Source: Candidatus Woesearchaeota archaeon (lineage in GTDB: Archaea > Nanobdellota > Nanobdellia > Woesearchaeales > JABGUJ01). Taken from it: DNA of 64,000 nt. Position numbers and translations under genes: made by a program. Every line of letters begins with the position of its first letter. The first letter of the stretch is position 1. Positions 53 to 8,040 of the stretch are shown here, one piece after another. The notes below the pieces were generated by a model that had not been told where the DNA came from, did no database searches, and saw nothing but the letters and a program-made list of their open reading frames with translations. The stretch is taken from the NCBI GenBank assembly GCA_018646625.1, contig JABGUJ010000002.1:412843-476842 (forward strand), read 5' to 3'.

Positions 53-931
53 ATGACTATAAAAACTTTAAAACCATTGGACTTTGGAAATAGAAGAGTG
101 CTTACTACAGAGGAAGCTCTTGCACAGTTGGAAGGCTATGTTCCAGAGAAAACTCCTCAGAATCCACCTACTGACCCAGACCCAGAACCAAATGGTAATT
201 TAGAAGGTTCAGTGGAGATTAGTGGTGATTACATCCTGATGCCTAAAGCTAACACTAAGGCCTTAGGAATTCACGCATTGAGAGAATCCTGTGAAAAGGA
301 AAGCAGTTCTGCTCATCCTCAGTTTGTTAGAACTGATGGCAGTAAAATTTATCGTCCTTTGACATTTAAAGAAGATATAGAAGCGAGAGTTAATGATTAT
401 GAAAGCAATAAAGATACTGATACAAGAGATAACGCTAAAAATAGATTACGTTTATTCAATCGTTGGATAGATTCCTGCACAGGAGTTGCTTACAAAGCAG
501 GCACAACTAAATTTAAATTAATTCCTCAATGTGAACCATTGATTGAAATTGCTAAAGATTTTAATAGTGCGTTTATGGTAATTGATTATGATTCAATAGC
601 AGGAGTAGAGTTGAACAGCAGTAGTGGAAAATATAATGAAAGATTAACAAAAGCAGAAGTTATTGAACATCCTGCTTGGCGAGCAGCAGTTGAAGATGAT
701 AAAAAATTATTAGAAACTTATGCCGAGATTGTTTTTACAGAGTATGCACAACAATATCCTGACCGAGATGCAAGTAAATTAATGAGATTTTGGGTTACAA
801 GTAATACTGCTCAAGATCAACTAAGGGCGTTGTTCGTTAATATTCTAAATAACATTTCAGATGCAAATGGTGGCAATGACCTAGACATTAACGGGTCTTT
901 TCTCCAAGTAGCCCCACCGAAGACGCCGTAG
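53..931 (+). CDS. DGR target protein with C-terminal variable region
   Basis: This 292-residue protein is the diversified partner of the adjacent reverse transcriptase. Its last 32 or so codons (residues 258-288) lie in a 93-base variable repeat that matches a template repeat downstream, with all differences at template adenines. Residues 264, 268, 270, 274, 276, 278, 279, 286 and 287 differ from what the template would encode; seven of the nine come from Asn codons. The N-terminal 50 residues end in a Pro/Asp-rich linker, the middle is mixed alpha/beta by eye, and no signal peptide or membrane segment is visible. An in-frame stop at 44-46 and the ATG at 53 set the start. I do not recognise the fold and see no clear C-type lectin motif. 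The role, probably ligand or surface binding, is inferred from DGR biology only. Confidence 0.85.
   Translation: MTIKTLKPLDFGNRRVLTTEEALAQLEGYVPEKTPQNPPTDPDPEPNGNLEGSVEISGDYILMPKANTKALGIHALRESCEKESSSAHPQFVRTDGSKIYRPLTFKEDIEARVNDYESNKDTDTRDNAKNRLRLFNRWIDSCTGVAYKAGTTKFKLIPQCEPLIEIAKDFNSAFMVIDYDSIAGVELNSSSGKYNERLTKAEVIEHPAWRAAVEDDKKLLETYAEIVFTEYAQQYPDRDASKLMRFWVTSNTAQDQLRALFVNILNNISDANGGNDLDINGSFLQVAPPKTP
824..916 (+). repeat. DGR variable repeat (VR)
   Basis: This 93-base stretch matches 1158-1250 at 83 positions with no gaps. The ten mismatches are at 843, 855, 860, 872, 873, 878, 884, 888, 908 and 911. Each sits opposite an A in the template (seven A to G, three A to T), and all fall at first or second codon positions of the target gene. 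That pattern is diagnostic of DGR adenine mutagenesis. Identity ends in CCCCA, followed by GC-rich sequence, which is the expected place for the initiation of mutagenic homology. Confidence 0.95.
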
Positions 932-937
932 GCAGTC
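922..937 (+). other. GC-rich hairpin just after the VR
   Basis: GACGCC pairs with GGC-A-GTC around a GTA loop (six pairs, one bulged A), starting six bases after the VR ends and overlapping the target stop codon. The stretch 911-942 is much richer in G and C than its surroundings. Some DGRs need a hairpin or cruciform just downstream of the VR for efficient retrohoming; assigning that role here is inference from position. Confidence 0.4.
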
Positions 938-1157
938 GCGCGAAAAATTTAGCCACTCAAATTTAGAAAGCTTTTTATTCTTGTTAGTATTTTCAATAAA
1001 TAGGCCTTGCGTTGCTTCTTTATGAGAAGTAATGGAAGTGCTTGGGCTACACGTCCTTTCGCTACGACAAACTAATATCTGTTTGTCATAAAATTCAATC
1101 ACGACACCTAATGCGTGAAGTGGTGGTGCATTCAACTAGGCGAGAGGGCTACTGAGG
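932..1157 (+). other. Non-coding DGR spacer between target gene and template repeat
   Basis: This 226-base stretch has no plausible plus-strand gene; a minus-strand open frame across it also runs through the VR and resembles nothing. It contains a perfect 7-bp stem (GACAAAC at 1066-1072 with GTTTGTC at 1081-1087, loop of eight). It may be the structured 5' part of the template RNA. No accessory avd-like gene is present here, where many DGRs carry one. Confidence 0.45.
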
Positions 1158-1250
1158 AGGGCGTTGTTCGTTAATAATCTAAATAACAATTCAAATGCAA
1201 ATGGTAACAATAACCTAAACAATAACGGGTCTTTTCTCCAAATAACCCCA
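1158..1250 (+). repeat. DGR template repeat (TR)
   Basis: This invariant copy has about 37 adenines in 93 bases. Read in the target frame it carries 13 Asn codons of the AAY type, the codons that adenine mutagenesis can turn into many amino acids without creating stops. It is expected to be transcribed into template RNA and copied by the reverse transcriptase at 1316-2413. The open frame continues past the repeat to a stop just before the RT gene, as if the TR were a decayed duplicate of a target-gene end. Confidence 0.93.
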
Positions 1251-1315
1251 GCACTACGCAAGGCTTTTATGCTTATTCTAATAGTGGCTTATTATTACTC
1301 AAAGAGGTAGTTTTT

Positions 1316-2413
1316 ATGGAAAATCTTTATTCAAAGCTTTGTGCTTATCAAAATCTTAAACTTGCTTTCAAGAATGCAAGAAAAGGCAAAACTCTGAAAT
1401 CTTATGTTACTGAATTTGAGGAGAATTTAGAAGAAAATTTATCAAAGTTAAGAAGTGAATTGATTTTCCACATCTACAAACCAAAACCTTTAGAAAATTT
1501 TATTCTGCGTGATCCAAAAACAAGAAAAATTAGTAAATCTGCTTTTCGTGATAGAATCGTTCATCACGCATTATGTAACATAATCACCCCAATCCTAGAA
1601 AAAGAGTTTATTTATGATTCCTATGCCAACAGAATTGGCAAAGGAACTTTTAAGGCAATAAAAAGGTTTAATTATTTTGCTAGAAAAGTGTCTAAGAATC
1701 ATACAAGAATTGCTTATGCTTTGAAAGTAGATATTAAACATTATTTTGAAGATGTTAATCATAGTATTTTGATTTCAATTCTCAAAAGAAAAATTGAAGA
1801 TGAAAGAGTATTTTGGTTAATAAAAACTATTTTAACAAATTACAAAACAAAAGTGAAAGGCAAAGGTATGCCTCTTGGCAATCTAACTTCTCAATTTTTT
1901 GCTAATGTTTATCTTAATGAATTAGATCAGTTTATGAAACACAAACTAAGAGCAAAGTATTACATTAGGTATGTTGATGATTTTGTTATTTTTGATGCAT
2001 CTAAGAAGAAACTACAAGATTACAAATTAAAAATCGATAAATTCTTACAAGAAAAGTTATCTTTACAAGCACATCCAGAGAAATCTAGGATCATCCTGCT
2101 CCAAAAAGGAGTTGAATTTTTAGGATTAAGAATATTTCCATACCATAAACTTCTCAAAAAGAAGAATTTAGGGAAGTTTGAAAGGAAACTTAAAGAATTG
2201 TTGTTTGAATATAACTTAAAATTAACTGAGTACGACCAAATTTATGATTTTCTGGAAGGTTGGTGTGCTTATGCTAAGAATGCTAACACTTACAAACTTA
2301 GGGAAAAGATATTAGAACAAACGGAAAATAAGTTTGTAGGTGAAATTTCAACAAAAGAAGTTAACAGATTGATGAAAACAAAAAGATTAAAGGCTCAAAA
2401 AATTACAAAATAA
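1316..2413 (+). CDS. DGR reverse transcriptase
   Basis: A 365-residue RNA-directed DNA polymerase that copies the template RNA with errors at adenines. Visible motifs in order are the first catalytic Asp in VDIKHYF (138-144), GMPLGNLTSQ (184-193), the YVDD active site (219-222) and VEFLGLRIF (266-274). The length is typical of DGR enzymes, and there is no maturase or endonuclease domain as in group II introns. A Shine-Dalgarno sequence (GAGGTAG) precedes the ATG at 1316. It begins 65 bases after the template repeat, and the order target-TR-RT is canonical. The family by itself could be group II-like or retron-like; the TR/VR pair is what settles the DGR call. Confidence 0.93.
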   Translation: MENLYSKLCAYQNLKLAFKNARKGKTLKSYVTEFEENLEENLSKLRSELIFHIYKPKPLENFILRDPKTRKISKSAFRDRIVHHALCNIITPILEKEFIYDSYANRIGKGTFKAIKRFNYFARKVSKNHTRIAYALKVDIKHYFEDVNHSILISILKRKIEDERVFWLIKTILTNYKTKVKGKGMPLGNLTSQFFANVYLNELDQFMKHKLRAKYYIRYVDDFVIFDASKKKLQDYKLKIDKFLQEKLSLQAHPEKSRIILLQKGVEFLGLRIFPYHKLLKKKNLGKFERKLKELLFEYNLKLTEYDQIYDFLEGWCAYAKNANTYKLREKILEQTENKFVGEISTKEVNRLMKTKRLKAQKITK

Positions 2414-2649: not shown

Positions 2650-3768
2650 ATGAAAACGCGCGTTTTTAATGATTCAGACATCCACGATTATGCCCTAAAT
2701 AGGCTTTTTGGTAGCAATGTTTCTGTAGATGATGTTAGCAGAATAGAGTTGCATAATGGTATTCTTCCTTCTGAATTAGAATCACTAGTCTCAACAAGAA
2801 TGGGAGATGGTGTTACAGTAGTAAATCAAAGAAACGGAAGAGAACCTATTTTGTTTCATTCAGGTGTTTTGTTTATTCCACAATACAGTGGTTTTGGAAG
2901 AAGAGAAAGATATGAAGAAATGATTGAAGCGTTTGTTCAGATTAGCGGTAAAGATATTAAATTTGAATCAAAAGAAAGAAAAGATGATCCAAGAGAAACT
3001 AATGTTGCATTTGATAATTTAGCATATGATTTTACAATGGGACTTTTTGTTCCTTCTGAAAGATATGATGCCTGGAGAATTTTTCCTGAACATGACATTG
3101 GTGAAATAAGAAAAATCATCTTTGGTCCTACTAGTGCTGTTGCAAAGCAATCAGATGTTGTTGCTAAAGGAGAGAGTGAATATTTAGATGCACAAATCAT
3201 TGAAGTTGAAGGTGAAAGAATTCTAAACTTAGGTTATGTTTATTCTGATCAAGTTGGAATATTGTTAGATAAGATTACAAGAGAGTATGACGCTATTGGA
3301 AGAAGAAATGGCGGAGTGGCTCTAAGAGTTGGTATGCTAGGTCGAGTTGGAGGATTAGCATATGGAATGCAAAGACATGATTTGGTTTTCCCTCATGGCA
3401 TAATTGATGAAGTTGATCTAGAAACTCTAGACGGCTCAAAGGTGTATCCAATACATAACAGAATGATTGGAGAGAATGGACATAGAGGAGTTAACTTGAA
3501 TGTTACTAGTGTAATAAACGAATCTCCTGAAGATCTTAGGCTTGCAAGAGATCTAGGTTGTGTATGTGTAGAGATGGAAGTTAGAGAGAGTGTAGAAGCA
3601 ATCAATAGAGCAAGACGTCGTTATCATAATAATCTTAATGTTGGTTTTGGTTTTGTAGGTCATGTATCTGATTTGCCTTTGCAAGGAGATACTTTAGCTA
3701 AAGAGTTAGATTCAGATAAAGGAGAACGGAATGCGGTTCGTGCGGTGTTGTACGGATTGACTCATTAA
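2650..3768 (+). CDS. Nucleoside phosphorylase-like protein
   Basis: A 372-residue protein whose C-terminal half resembles the purine/uridine phosphorylase superfamily: a glycine-rich segment (GMLGRVGGL), a DLVFPHG strand like the DVVIP strand of phosphorylases, and CVEMEVRE (about 305-312) matching the E-M-E ribose-binding motif, then VSDLPLQGD. Its family would split a nucleoside with phosphate. Next to NAD salvage genes, nicotinamide riboside or a purine nucleoside is a reasonable substrate, but this is inference. The N-terminal 150 residues are not recognised and make the protein longer than ordinary phosphorylases. It converges on the NAD kinase gene with a 4-base overlap. Confidence 0.6.
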   Translation: MKTRVFNDSDIHDYALNRLFGSNVSVDDVSRIELHNGILPSELESLVSTRMGDGVTVVNQRNGREPILFHSGVLFIPQYSGFGRRERYEEMIEAFVQISGKDIKFESKERKDDPRETNVAFDNLAYDFTMGLFVPSERYDAWRIFPEHDIGEIRKIIFGPTSAVAKQSDVVAKGESEYLDAQIIEVEGERILNLGYVYSDQVGILLDKITREYDAIGRRNGGVALRVGMLGRVGGLAYGMQRHDLVFPHGIIDEVDLETLDGSKVYPIHNRMIGENGHRGVNLNVTSVINESPEDLRLARDLGCVCVEMEVRESVEAINRARRRYHNNLNVGFGFVGHVSDLPLQGDTLAKELDSDKGERNAVRAVLYGLTH

Positions 3769-4580
3769 TTTCTTAATTGTCCTAGCGCAATTAAAGGCGT
3801 GCCAGATTTTATTATCAGTTCTTTTCCTAAAGTGAAGTCGTATTCTAAATGATTTCCATCAACATATAATGTACCTTGTCTTGTTAGTGAATGTACTTGT
3901 AGTTGTTCAGCATATTGAGGTGTAGCGTTTCTTGTTCCTCGATGTACATATTGTAGTTTAGTGGATTCTAAGGGCATTACTTTTCCGTTTTCTTCATACA
4001 TCCACCCAGTTGAGCCAGCAGCGGTGCATACAAGTAATCCGGAGTTTTTGTATTCTTTTGTATTTAGAATATACCGAGTTGTTGCTGCAGGGTTAGAGTG
4101 TGCTACTAAAACATCATTTAACGCTAATTGTTGCAGAGGTTTACCCTCTAGTGTTAATTCTAGCCTACTGAGTTCGTTACGTTTTGCGGTTTCTATGTTT
4201 TGCCATGCTTGTTCAAACTTTTCTCTATTTGTTGACATAAAAAAACCAACACTATTTTGTGGATCAGAATTTACCCCTAAAACCGGAGTCGTTGTTACGT
4301 AATGAGATACTTCTAGAAAAGTACCATCTCCACCAACGGCAATTACTAGATCTTCATCTACTTGTTCTAGATCTGCACGATAAATGGCTCTGTGTTGTAC
4401 CCCAGATCGTTGCAATACATCTAAAACATGATCTAGGGTTCTTCTTTGAGTATCAGCACTAGTTCTCATGGTTTTTACATCCGAGTTTGTGCTTTTGAGA
4501 AAATCTCTAACATCTTTGTCGGGTGAATTTCCGTATAGTTCGAAACTGCTTTTTTTGTATACAACTAATGCAGAGTTCAT
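3765..4580 (-). CDS. nadK: NAD kinase
   Basis: This 271-residue enzyme phosphorylates NAD to NADP. The family motifs are GGDGTFL (83-89), NDVL (155-158) and TAAGSTGW (186-193). The GGDGT loop and the glycine-rich TAGSTG segment are the ATP and NAD sites of the PpnK family. It is the last gene of the pncA-to-nadK run, and its ATG overlaps the stop of the nucleoside hydrolase gene (ATGA), implying coupled translation. The end overlaps the convergent phosphorylase-like gene by four bases. Confidence 0.93.
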   Translation of the reverse strand: MNSALVVYKKSSFELYGNSPDKDVRDFLKSTNSDVKTMRTSADTQRRTLDHVLDVLQRSGVQHRAIYRADLEQVDEDLVIAVGGDGTFLEVSHYVTTTPVLGVNSDPQNSVGFFMSTNREKFEQAWQNIETAKRNELSRLELTLEGKPLQQLALNDVLVAHSNPAATTRYILNTKEYKNSGLLVCTAAGSTGWMYEENGKVMPLESTKLQYVHRGTRNATPQYAEQLQVHSLTRQGTLYVDGNHLEYDFTLGKELIIKSGTPLIALGQLRN

Positions 4581-5407
4581 AAATTATTACCTCTTAGAAT
4601 TGAGTCTAGAAATGTTCTACTAAAGTCTCTTGAAACATGGGTTGTTACTGAAGTTCTTTGCGCGGCGTAACATACTTGAGAGGTTACTCTTTGATCTATA
4701 TGATGATGCACAGTTAAAGGGTCATAAAGATATGCAACAGGATAAGAGATGTAATCCATCCATTCCTGTGCTGCCGCTGCAAGATATTTCACGGCTTGCG
4801 AAGGATGTTTTCCCATTTGCTGCAGATCTTCGGAAGTTAGAAAATTAAGTTTACACACTCCAGTTGTTACTATTGTTTTGTCAACCTCTGCAGCCATCAC
4901 AATGTCTACGGCTTCGGGATCAACTTTGAAATTATGAGATCGATAGTTAATGAAATATTCACTCGATCTTACTACGGCATTACCCATTAAGTATAGATGA
5001 TTGACCGCGCCAGGTAATTCAGGATAAGTTTGAAAGGCTTTTGCAATATTTGTTAGAGGACCAATGGCTGCAATGTTAATATTTCCGCGATTTCTAAGAA
5101 TTGTTTCCGCTAGCGCATCTATACCGTCACGTTCTATGTCTAGCACATCATCATTTTCTAAAAAGCCTTGTCCTTCTCTGCCAGAGGTGTAAATATGTCT
5201 TTGTTTTAGTGGTGTTTCTTCACCCATGTGTACTGGAACATCTTTACCTAATAAGTTGAGAAGTTTTTTTGCAATCTTCGCTCTAGTTTCAGTATCTCCG
5301 TGAACGGTTGTGATTAATTCTAAATCTATACCTGATTTAACGGCGTGAGCGATTGCTAGTGCATCGTCAACATCAGTTCCAATATCCGTGTCAATTATTA
5401 ATTTCAT
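4577..5407 (-). CDS. Inosine-uridine type nucleoside hydrolase
   Basis: A 276-residue nucleoside hydrolase. The N-terminus has the calcium-binding aspartate cluster DTDIGTDVDDAL (residues 6-17), a variant of DTDxGxDD, and the middle carries IAAIGPLTNIA, typical of IUNH enzymes. I chose the ATG at 5407 because the protein then begins MKLIIDTD as the family does and overlaps the nadM stop by four bases; the frame is open further upstream but that part looks spurious. IUNH enzymes cut ribonucleosides into base and ribose. Between nadM and nadK it may act on nicotinamide or nicotinic acid riboside to feed the salvage route, which is inference. Confidence 0.88.
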   Translation of the reverse strand: MKLIIDTDIGTDVDDALAIAHAVKSGIDLELITTVHGDTETRAKIAKKLLNLLGKDVPVHMGEETPLKQRHIYTSGREGQGFLENDDVLDIERDGIDALAETILRNRGNINIAAIGPLTNIAKAFQTYPELPGAVNHLYLMGNAVVRSSEYFINYRSHNFKVDPEAVDIVMAAEVDKTIVTTGVCKLNFLTSEDLQQMGKHPSQAVKYLAAAAQEWMDYISYPVAYLYDPLTVHHHIDQRVTSQVCYAAQRTSVTTHVSRDFSRTFLDSILRGNNL

Positions 5408-6021
5408 CTTCCCTCGTAAACGTGTCTTCGTTCCTCTTCTGTGCTCTCCCAAGGAGTATAATCAGGGGAGAGTACTGCTAATGTTTCTTCAGCAAATTCT
5501 TCTTGAAAGCGTTCCACTAAGCCATTTGTTTTTAGATAATCCGCAACCGGTTCTGGAACCATACATTCCCAATCTCCGTTAGTTGCAAGTTCTATTCGTA
5601 CTATTGTGGCTTTTACGTCTCGTTTTCTATTTCCGGGAACGGCCTGCACAGGCGTTAGAACTTCATATGTATCTTGCAATAACTCCGCAACATAACCATT
5701 ACCAGTAACAAAGTGTGTTATTTCGCCAAATTGTTCTACAACTTCTTGTTTCCATTTTGAACCATCTCGGTACTGAGGCAAGTGTGCGTAATCAGGAATT
5801 TGTACTAGGGAATAGTTTTGATATTTGGGACCTAGAACCAGGTCAATCATCGCTCTCGATTCATCGGCAGTAAATGGATTTCTCACGTTGTATTGGTTGC
5901 TGCTACCAATTCCGATAACGACATGTTCTGCTGTTTCGCATAATGCTTCCAAAGCAGACGCACTTCCGTTATGTAGTGGCTTGAATCTTCCAATAAAACC
6001 CACGATCCCTAACTCAGTCAT
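5404..6021 (-). CDS. nadM: NMN/NaMN adenylyltransferase, NadM-like
   Basis: A 205-residue nucleotidyltransferase of the archaeal NadM type that joins (nicotinate) mononucleotide with ATP to give the dinucleotide. The nucleotide-binding loop is GRFKPLHNG (11-19), and GSSNQYNVRNPFTADE follows the usual NadM pattern of GS..NPFT..E. The family HxGH signature reads HNGS here, so the second His is Ser. The C-terminal 40 residues extend beyond typical archaeal NadM. It overlaps the Nudix gene by one base and the nucleoside hydrolase by four, so it is translated within the operon. Confidence 0.88.
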   Translation of the reverse strand: MTELGIVGFIGRFKPLHNGSASALEALCETAEHVVIGIGSSNQYNVRNPFTADESRAMIDLVLGPKYQNYSLVQIPDYAHLPQYRDGSKWKQEVVEQFGEITHFVTGNGYVAELLQDTYEVLTPVQAVPGNRKRDVKATIVRIELATNGDWECMVPEPVADYLKTNGLVERFQEEFAEETLAVLSPDYTPWESTEEERRHVYEGR

Positions 6022-6479
6022 CAGGCATACCCCCTATGTTCCAAATATTTCATTAGAATTCGTTCATGATCAAACACAATTTGTCCTTGACCTAGTAAAT
6101 CTCTAACTTCATTTATGGTATACAGAGTTGCAGTCTTTGCGTCATCTCCCGCTCTTAGTTCGCCGTATCCTTTTGCAACGTAAGTTACGCTAATCATATG
6201 TGCACGAGGATCCCTCAAGGGATCGGAGTGTACACATAGAGGGGATTCAGGAGACTCGAGAATAACTTCTAATCCGGTTTCTTCTTTAGCTTCTTTCGCC
6301 GCATTTTCTTCAAGAGAAATTCCTAGTTCAGCAAATCCTCCTGGAAGAGCAATACCGTGCGGTGGATTTTTTCTTGTGATTAATACAATTCCATCTTTAT
6401 CGCCATTGTTGTATTCAATAACAATATCAGTTGTAGGGATTGGATTTCTGTAAACTTGGATCTTATCTTGAGCGGGCAT
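6021..6479 (-). CDS. Nudix hydrolase in the NAD operon
   Basis: A 152-residue single-domain Nudix protein. The Nudix box spans about residues 47-70 (GGFAELGISLEENAAKEAK, then EETGL). The metal-binding E-x2-EE core is kept, the canonical Arg is Lys and the first Glu position is Ile. The mid-section RDPRAHMISVTYVA matches the ADP-ribose pyrophosphatase-like branch. A likely job is to hydrolyse ADP-ribose or a dinucleotide and return the parts to NAD metabolism; the substrate is not shown by sequence. A strong Shine-Dalgarno (AGGAGGT) precedes its ATG. Confidence 0.85.
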   Translation of the reverse strand: MPAQDKIQVYRNPIPTTDIVIEYNNGDKDGIVLITRKNPPHGIALPGGFAELGISLEENAAKEAKEETGLEVILESPESPLCVHSDPLRDPRAHMISVTYVAKGYGELRAGDDAKTATLYTINEVRDLLGQGQIVFDHERILMKYLEHRGYA

Positions 6480-6489
6480 TTTTACCTCC

Positions 6490-7395
6490 TTATTGATAAA
6501 TTAAAGTTACAGGCGCACTAGGTGGATGAATTATTTCCATTTTAGGCGCTGCAACATTTTCGTGTCTTCTGATAACGTCGTCTACCATCTCACTAGTAGT
6601 ATGATACTTGTGTTCTCCAAAGCTGTCATGATAGAATGCTCTTTGTTGCTTAGCAAGTGGATGTACTTGACCGTGAGTGTAGAGTTCTTCTTGGGTTAGG
6701 CCTTGAGCAAGTCCTTCAGTTACAAGTTCTACAAAGTTATACTCATAACCTAAATCTTTGAAATCTGTTTGACCAGGTTCTAATCCCGCAGAGGGTGTTC
6801 TGCTGGCCATGTCTTCAAAACCAAGGTAAGATGCCATTTGTCTAACCAGTCGTTTAGGCAAACCAGAAATTGGACTCATGTGTACTGCACCATCACCAAA
6901 AAGAGTGTAGTAACCAATTCCAAAATCTTCGTCTTTGTTACCCGTACCTGCAACGGTTTTTCTTTCAGTAGCAGACTTTGTTGAAAGCACGTTGGCTCTA
7001 ATTCTAGAAGTTAAGTTTCCTCTGTGGAAATTATTTGAGAGTGCTTCAGGATTAGTTCCTTCATACGCTTTGACTATCCCTTCAATACTTTGAGTCTCAC
7101 ATCGTATTCCCAATCGTTCTGCAACTTTAATTCCGTCTTCAGTGTCTGCATCTATGTTCGTACTTGAAGGTAAAACATATCCCACCAACTCTAAAGTGTC
7201 ATCATGTGTTGCATTGTAACTGTCAAATGCTTTTTTAATTAGGGCAGCAGTAGTTGTTGAATCCACCCCTCCCGATAAACCGATAACACAACCAGTTGAA
7301 TTGGCTCTTTTCACTGTATCGACTACAAAGTCACCTATTTCTTGACTTACTAATTCCGCATCCATTTCTGGAATGATTATTTTTTTCTCGAGCAT
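6490..7395 (-). CDS. nadE: NAD synthetase
   Basis: A 301-residue ATP pyrophosphatase that amidates nicotinic acid adenine dinucleotide to NAD. The P-loop is SGGVDS (41-46). GTGNKDEDFGIGYYTLFGDG is a classic NadE segment with the deamido-NAD and ammonia-site residues. No glutaminase domain is attached, so it is the ammonia-dependent form. It follows pncA by 12 bases with an AGGAGGT ribosome-binding site, inside the salvage operon. Confidence 0.95.
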   Translation of the reverse strand: MLEKKIIIPEMDAELVSQEIGDFVVDTVKRANSTGCVIGLSGGVDSTTTAALIKKAFDSYNATHDDTLELVGYVLPSSTNIDADTEDGIKVAERLGIRCETQSIEGIVKAYEGTNPEALSNNFHRGNLTSRIRANVLSTKSATERKTVAGTGNKDEDFGIGYYTLFGDGAVHMSPISGLPKRLVRQMASYLGFEDMASRTPSAGLEPGQTDFKDLGYEYNFVELVTEGLAQGLTQEELYTHGQVHPLAKQQRAFYHDSFGEHKYHTTSEMVDDVIRRHENVAAPKMEIIHPPSAPVTLIYQ

Positions 7396-7407
7396 TTTGT
7401 CTACCTC

Positions 7408-8040
7408 CTAAATATAATTTGAAACTTCATCCGTTGTTGTTAGAAGTGCACCAGCCTGTTGCCAAGCATCCAGAGTAGCCTCTAAAGGTAGTCCAGGTAA
7501 TTCTTTTATGGCGTCAGTTGGCACGTATACTTCCACGCCCCGTTCTAGAAGTCCTTGAACAGCAAAGTCTACACAAACATTTGTTGCAACACCATAAACT
7601 ATTGCTCTGTCAGGTGCAATTGTGCTTAGAACTTCTTCAGTATGCGGGTTGCCTTCGAAAACATCAAATGCATCTTTGTATAATACAATATTCCTCGTGT
7701 TTGTTACTGCTTTCGCATCAACACTTTCCTGTTGCCAATCAACTTTGTAAGCATCTTTGGGTTGAGTTGAAGGCACGTAATCCGCACCTTTTGTTTCCGT
7801 CAAACAATGTGGCGGGAAGGTTGTTTGATAGTTAGGTTCGTCAGAAAATTCCGCAGAGTCTTTGTTATGCCAATCAGCACTATTTACAACTTTGATATCT
7901 TCATTTTCCGCGAGTTCAGTTAATTTTTCTAAGTTAGGTTCAATACTTCTTGCACCCTCTACAGGTAATGTGCCTTTGAAGCTGTCATCACTCCTCATAA
8001 AATCGTATTGCGTGTCTACGTTCCAAAAGATTGTTTTCAT
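7408..8040 (-). CDS. pncA: Nicotinamidase
   Basis: A 210-residue isochorismatase-fold amidase that converts nicotinamide to nicotinic acid, the entry step of the cluster. The catalytic triad is visible as D9 (NVDTQYDF), K122 (YKDAFD) and C156 (ATNVCVDFA). Metal ligands are probably D56 and H58 (DWH) with H78 (FPPH). It is the first gene of the six-gene run to nadK; an imperfect NrtR-type operator lies about 28 bases upstream of the start, followed by an AGGAGGT ribosome-binding site. Confidence 0.93.
   Translation of the reverse strand: MKTIFWNVDTQYDFMRSDDSFKGTLPVEGARSIEPNLEKLTELAENEDIKVVNSADWHNKDSAEFSDEPNYQTTFPPHCLTETKGADYVPSTQPKDAYKVDWQQESVDAKAVTNTRNIVLYKDAFDVFEGNPHTEEVLSTIAPDRAIVYGVATNVCVDFAVQGLLERGVEVYVPTDAIKELPGLPLEATLDAWQQAGALLTTTDEVSNYI

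Follow-up and report, generated by a model that had tools for sequence, protein, structure and literature searches.

Diversity-generating retroelements (DGRs) are abundant in DPANN archaea, and the question raised by the locus analysed here is what role the proteins diversified by such an element play in these hosts. The locus was read in a window of 64,000 nucleotides, the whole stretch of DNA that was analysed (positions 412,843 to 476,842 of the forward strand of contig JABGUJ010000002.1, here C1, of assembly GCA_018646625.1). The host, an uncultured archaeon, belongs to the order Woesearchaeales, in agreement with the DPANN archaeon that had been thought probable from the DNA letters. The original prediction described one target gene, a 93-base template repeat (TR) and variable repeat (VR), and a YVDD reverse transcriptase (RT) in this order. 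All these features were confirmed, but the description was incomplete: there are four targets and not one, and they belong with a MoxR-VWA operon that is mostly outside the window, as the window edge at C1:412843 truncates the locus and leaves T1, MoxR, T2, T3 and most of VWA outside.

Once the genome stretch upstream of the window had been fetched, the order of the locus, all on one strand, could be read as T1–MoxR–T2–T3–VWA–T4–TR–RT (Table 1). MoxR and T2 overlap by 4 nt and so do VWA and T4, where the start codon of T4 overlaps the stop codon of VWA, and an archaeal TATA-like TTTATAAA is present ~60 nt upstream of T1. T1-MoxR-T2-T3-VWA-T4-RT-16 RNA/TR-RT is one operon-like array, of which the window has the 3' end.

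Table 1. Features of the array, with positions in the window and in contig C1.
Feature	Window	C1	Strand	Remarks
T1		406805-407683	+	upstream of window
MoxR		407863-409266	+	upstream of window
T2		409263-410132	+	upstream of window
T3		410177-411058	+	upstream of window
VWA, 599 aa	1-56 (final 56 bases)	411099-412898	+	HExxH...NxxED region N-terminal; VWA domain with MIDAS C-terminal
T4, DGR variable protein, 292 aa	53-931	412895-413773	+	AvpA-like C-type-lectin fold
VR4 (variable repeat of T4)	824-916		+	
IMH candidate GGGTCTTTTCTCCAAGTAGCCCC	893-915		+	same in 4/4 VRs; two A>G vs TR copy
Post-VR hairpin GACGCC-GTA-GGCAGTC	922-937		+	
RT-16 structured RNA, Rfam RF03019	1006-1157		+	adjoins TR 5' end
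TR	1158-1250	414000-414092	+	93 bases, 37 A, 13 AAY codons
IMH* candidate within TR	1227-1249		+	
DGR RT, 365 aa	1316-2413	414158-415255	+	LGNLTSQ, YVDD

VR4 and the TR, compared as ungapped 93-mers, differ at 10 positions, all 10 of them template adenines (hypergeometric P = 4e-5), so that a recount agreed with the earlier hand count, also for the adenine content of the template. It was likewise correct that the 10 changes fall at codon positions 1 or 2 of T4, but the avoidance of position 3, given that the changes are on A, was not significant (P = 0.09), and third-position changes are present in the other VRs. When the TR was searched against its own genome, three more VRs were matched, at C1:407576, 410025 and 410951. 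One TR serves the four VRs, with 16, 11, 10 and 10 mismatches, and all 47 of these fall on adenines of the template (34 A>G, 11 A>T and 2 A>C); VR-to-VR differences are found at template A positions exclusively. TR bases 85 and 88, which account for two of the ten changes of VR4, are G in 4/4 VRs and therefore look like a fixed IMH/IMH* difference, not like independent mutagenesis. A hairpin with a bulged stem follows each of the four VRs, with small changes between copies, and none follows the TR. By arithmetic, the AAY codons of the template allow ~15^13, or 2 x 10^15, possible proteins per target.

The RT carries a DGR-type GxxxSQ motif (LGNLTSQ) together with YVDD, and its best PDB match is the RT chain of 8ub7 (E 2.6e-45), which we take to be the BPP-1 DGR RT. 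In an RT tree, the check put forward with the original prediction, it fell inside the DGR clade, which is separated from group II RTs by a 100/100 split. There it belongs to a DPANN clade (99/97, with 39 other DPANN RTs) inside a group with BPP-1 and other phage DGR RTs, the order within the DGR group being unsure because some reference branches are long. Avd is a common accessory of DGRs, though not a universal one; here, no match to PF05635 was found genome-wide, and between VR and RT the + strand has no ORF of Avd size. The match to RT-16 (80.4 bits for a gathering threshold of 50, E 1.9e-12) ends one base before the TR, and this RNA adjoins the TR in 10/10 of the MoxR/VWA-linked loci checked, and also in locus L169 and in several stand-alone DPANN DGRs. 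Because it abuts the TR at the 5' side across DPANN DGR loci, RT-16 probably forms the 5' portion of the template RNA of DPANN DGRs. Nothing usable on it was found in the literature, and Rfam's RT-16 RNA is now placed at the 5' flank of a DGR template repeat. The DGR of phage BPP-1 is alike in RT family and TR/VR logic, but has Avd and a Phage_DGR RNA 3' of the TR, whereas no Avd-type match was obtained here and the RT-16 RNA is 5' of the TR.

T1–T3 are 56-65% identical to T4, and the first 35 residues are nearly identical across the four proteins, none of which had a match in Pfam, NCBIfam or PHROGs. The AlphaFold model of T4 (37 sequences, mean pLDDT 89.8) gave a sole significant PDB match in Foldseek, 5ioo (E 2.9e-8, probability 1.00), which is the AvpA C-type lectin (CLec) of Nanoarchaeota, and the T4 sequence profile independently matched AvpA across the VR region (E 1.6e-4). 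The target, previously described as unrecognised, is therefore recognisable as an AvpA-like CLec, and in the model the VR occupies its predicted ligand-binding face. The strand motif RFxGV, IMH-encoded in AvpA-like CLecs, reads SFLQV in the window targets and GRLVGV in distant relatives. The adenine-specific TR/VR differences, the RT within the DGR clade, the CLec target and the hairpin after all four VRs bear out the identification of the element as a DGR. Among the 371 genomes of the phylum sample, 35 have the T family, several with their own A-only TR/VR. Scans of genome and viral contigs with the four targets gave no relative, because the peptide patterns used were drawn from the shared N-terminal tag.

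Some members of the T family were found in other settings. In genome G119 (L045 9478-11277), a DGR RT and a target of the T family are read in a single open frame of 600 aa that contains an ambiguous base; this could be a fusion or an assembly error. Several dispersed T-family genes were seen in G323 (L053, L057, L058) and G012 (L059, L060); no DGR RT was found in G323, which is 85% complete, and the dispersed genes may be relics or remote targets, or the RT may be missing.

Regarding the two partners encoded among the targets, Walker A, Walker B and sensor residues are invariant in the MoxR relatives, Pfam matched AAA_5 in 5/7 members and the MoxR consensus matched AAA_5 at 6.7e-8, the window genome's own MoxR alone being under the Pfam thresholds. 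On these features the protein is assigned to the MoxR-class AAA+ ATPases. A weak match to bpMoxR was obtained in 4/7 members (best E 0.006), the sole Pfam model of a MoxR-vWA system matched by these MoxRs; in bpMoxR ternary systems a beta-propeller is fused to vWA, and no such fusion was found here. Pfam gave no useful match for the VWA family, singly or as a consensus, and neither did a PDB sequence search, so that its fold is predicted from the AlphaFold model (pLDDT 85.4). In Foldseek, this model matched VWA domains, one of them in NorD, which belongs to the MoxR-type NorQD complex. Among the 23 relatives compared, D418, S420, T507 and D529 of the MIDAS are conserved, H84, N134 and D138 are kept, and H80 and E81 are nearly always present, with the exceptions that L105 has HGCGH and L123 is without the first His. 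The HExxH...NxxED motif by itself suggests a zincin-like protein with putative protease activity. No known effector domain was found besides this motif-level zincin, and PADLOC defence models had no match to T, VWA or the window genome's MoxR.

MoxR, VWA and a DGR could also occur together in a proviral tail or host-recognition module, that is, an archaeal viral MoxR-VWA system with a DGR tail fibre. An archaeal viral MoxR-vWA assembly system is cited by Kaur et al. (PMC7159879), and two tyrosine recombinases are encoded upstream of the array (C1:401895-402632 and C1:405833-406444). However, an IMG/VR search with VWA and MoxR gave no relative at the sensitivity used, T, MoxR and VWA had no PHROG match, the flanking genes tested included no structural viral gene, and no viral fold match was found for T. 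A provirus origin was thus unsupported by the IMG/VR, PHROG and flanking-gene tests, and we consider it very unlikely.

The same association was followed in other genomes. The order MoxR–CLec–VWA–CLec–TR–RT, or the same genes with a divergent RT, was found in 13 verified loci with A-only-type repeats, in which 302/307 differences over 26 VRs are at A, compared to a mean A content of 0.30. In each of these loci MoxR, VWA or both are encoded on the stretch that was fetched, L171 being without MoxR (contig end) and L184 without a VWA match, and duplicates were counted once (L202, L203, L208, L209, L210 and L213 are the same as L165, L166, L168, L169, L107 and L170, respectively). The VWA profile was detected in 29/371 genomes of the phylum sample; the collection was scanned with a 5-row alignment as query. 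In GTDB contigs, 20/21 named VWA loci were archaeal, with the titles Woesearchaeota, Pacearchaeota, Nanoarchaeota, Nanoarchaeia, Micrarchaeota, DPANN group and plain archaeon, and the 21st was from a WOR-3 bin and had no CLec neighbours. A DGR RT was present at <=10 kb from 11/27 VWA loci, for a chance expectation of about 1 to 3.5% each (P = 1e-15 to 7e-10, the latter with the RT density taken from genomes that have an RT); these P values are overstated because loci of the same clade are not independent, although the effect is still large. Many MoxR-VWA loci are without a nearby RT. DGRs of the AvpA-like type are often found without MoxR-VWA in this phylum, as would be expected if a stand-alone DGR sat beside a MoxR-VWA operon by chance. 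That reading is already contradicted by the recurrence of the arrangement with different CLec types in the 13 loci, and the T genes stand between MoxR and VWA with the 4-nt overlaps described above; we give it hardly any credence. In one of the MoxR-VWA DGR loci, the CLec genes are separated from the TR by a small ORF that is MazF/PemK-like by eye (L107 12138-12470, +).

The position beside VWA is not always held by a CLec, since it is taken by an LRR protein in L174 and by Chlam_PMP beta-helix repeat proteins in L175 and L176. Partners of one locus have a common N-terminal tag of 25-40 residues, followed by a proline-rich or charged linker. The tags of L173 and L177, whose C-terminal parts were judged to be CLecs by their resemblance to VR-bearing CLecs, align with the beta-helix tags of L175 and L176, mostly at E 5e-6 to 1e-9 and at about 1e-4 for the weakest cross-type pair, and the partner bodies gave no match; as the tags are charged helices and the E values are uncorrected for composition, the evidence is moderate. 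The tag of the window targets had no detectable homology to those of other loci. The partners of L178 and L179 had been taken for beta-propellers by eye, for which Pfam gave no support. In the MoxR–VWA relatives, the putative recognition module is swapped between CLec, LRR and beta-helix. The presence of the same gene set across DPANN archaea suggests that the self-diversifying proteins are interchangeable recognition parts of an intracellular machine, and the operon, which displays this swapping, predicts a cytosolic role for them. To our knowledge, this recurring operon, with diversified proteins between MoxR and a VWA/zincin-like protein, is the first testable partner machine known for DPANN DGR targets.

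On balance, we think it slightly more likely than not that a MoxR–VWA machine in the cytosol responds to variable, perhaps non-self, ligands and that its docking recognition subunits are what the DGR diversifies. The sequence record shows that the DGR has copied its template RNA with errors at adenines and has written the copies into the four AvpA-like CLecs, at their C-terminal, ligand-binding face. These CLecs would be the recognition subunits of the MoxR AAA+/VWA machine and would probably dock through their shared N-terminal tag. A ligand on the variable face would probably be recruited to the MoxR-VWA remodeller, whose VWA subunit carries the zincin-like motif, or would switch it on. Ligand binding may thus either deliver clients or trigger the effector, the latter as Dore et al. 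(PMC10907252) propose for bacterial DGR ternary systems. Several variants would be maintained side by side, and the system would likely serve to recognise foreign or partner proteins that vary, be it in anti-viral or in other non-self recognition.

A different location of the CLecs would follow if the MoxR-VWA pair were a chaperone that folds, matures or exports them as adhesins for the extracellular attachment of DPANN symbionts to their hosts. A role in symbiosis was proposed by the AvpA authors (PMC5006420) and, for clade 5F, by Dore et al. (PMC10907252), and NorQD-like MoxR-VWA pairs are known assembly machines (PMC9976466). However, a hydropathy scan found no signal-peptide-like or transmembrane stretch in T1-T4, MoxR, VWA or 20 partner proteins, the same place is held by LRR and beta-helix partners, and in L027 (2-703, -) an N-terminal J-domain (Pfam DnaJ 7.5e-24), a module of cytosolic co-chaperones, is fused to an AvpA-like CLec relative. 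Adhesin maturation is, in our opinion, a serious but improbable alternative. The fusion of L027 suggests that a variable-type CLec may be coupled to Hsp70; it is the only supported case, as L015 and L025, also considered as J-domain fusions, were below the Pfam cut-off. The same J-domain–CLec fusion, the HExxH...NxxED motif of VWA, the AAA+ partner and the shared N-terminal tags would equally suit substrate adaptors, that is, CLecs without signalling that pick self or foreign clients for unfolding and proteolysis by MoxR-VWA/zincin, with no abortive response. As the zincin is motif-level, and as this proposal overlaps the diversified recognition subunits favoured above and differs in outcome, we regard it as unlikely, and somewhat more so than adhesin maturation.

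Among known systems, the nanoarchaeal AvpA DGR (Paul 2015, Handa 2016; PDB 5ioo) is alike in its AvpA-subclass CLec, its A-specific TR/VR and its DPANN host, but it has been described without a function or a partner machine, whereas here four AvpA-like genes with one TR are flanked by MoxR and VWA. A MoxR AAA+ and a vWA are likewise combined with a CLec diversified by a DGR in some VMAP ternary conflict systems (Kaur 2020; Dore 2024). MoxR-vWA ternary systems that are DGR-linked in cyanobacteria and gammaproteobacteria, with the CLec mostly vWA-fused, were described by Kaur et al. 2020 (PMC7159879). In VMAP systems, which are mostly from multicellular bacteria, fusion of the CLec to vWA is usual and VMAP is the third component, whereas here the CLec genes are separate and have N-terminal tags, the VWA protein has a protease-like motif and the hosts are DPANN archaea. 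No extra gene that could be a third component is present between T1 and the RT, and neither PADLOC nor Pfam gave such a match; because the VMAP component was not found, the locus was not filed as a VMAP system. It is plausible, if at rather less than even chances, that the locus is a DPANN cytosolic anticipatory system in which tag-plugged, DGR-diversified CLecs, swappable with LRR or beta-helix modules, sit on a MoxR-VWA/zincin effector, which would make it the archaeal counterpart of the DGR-armed ternary conflict systems with the recognition subunits unfused. No literature joining DPANN DGRs with MoxR and VWA was found; the Paul 2017 survey, reportedly the main one of DPANN DGRs, was outside the scope of this search and could describe such loci.

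Two further observations concern the surroundings of the array. A Schlafen/AlbA_2 protein is encoded together with the upstream recombinases (C1:401895-406444; L010 1896-6445), a possible mobile or defence-island setting. On the other side, the genes on the minus strand at window 3765-8040 resemble, by eye, NAD kinase, nucleoside hydrolase, NMN adenylyltransferase, NUDIX, NAD synthetase and nicotinamidase, and appear to be a chromosomal NAD cluster adjoining the array.
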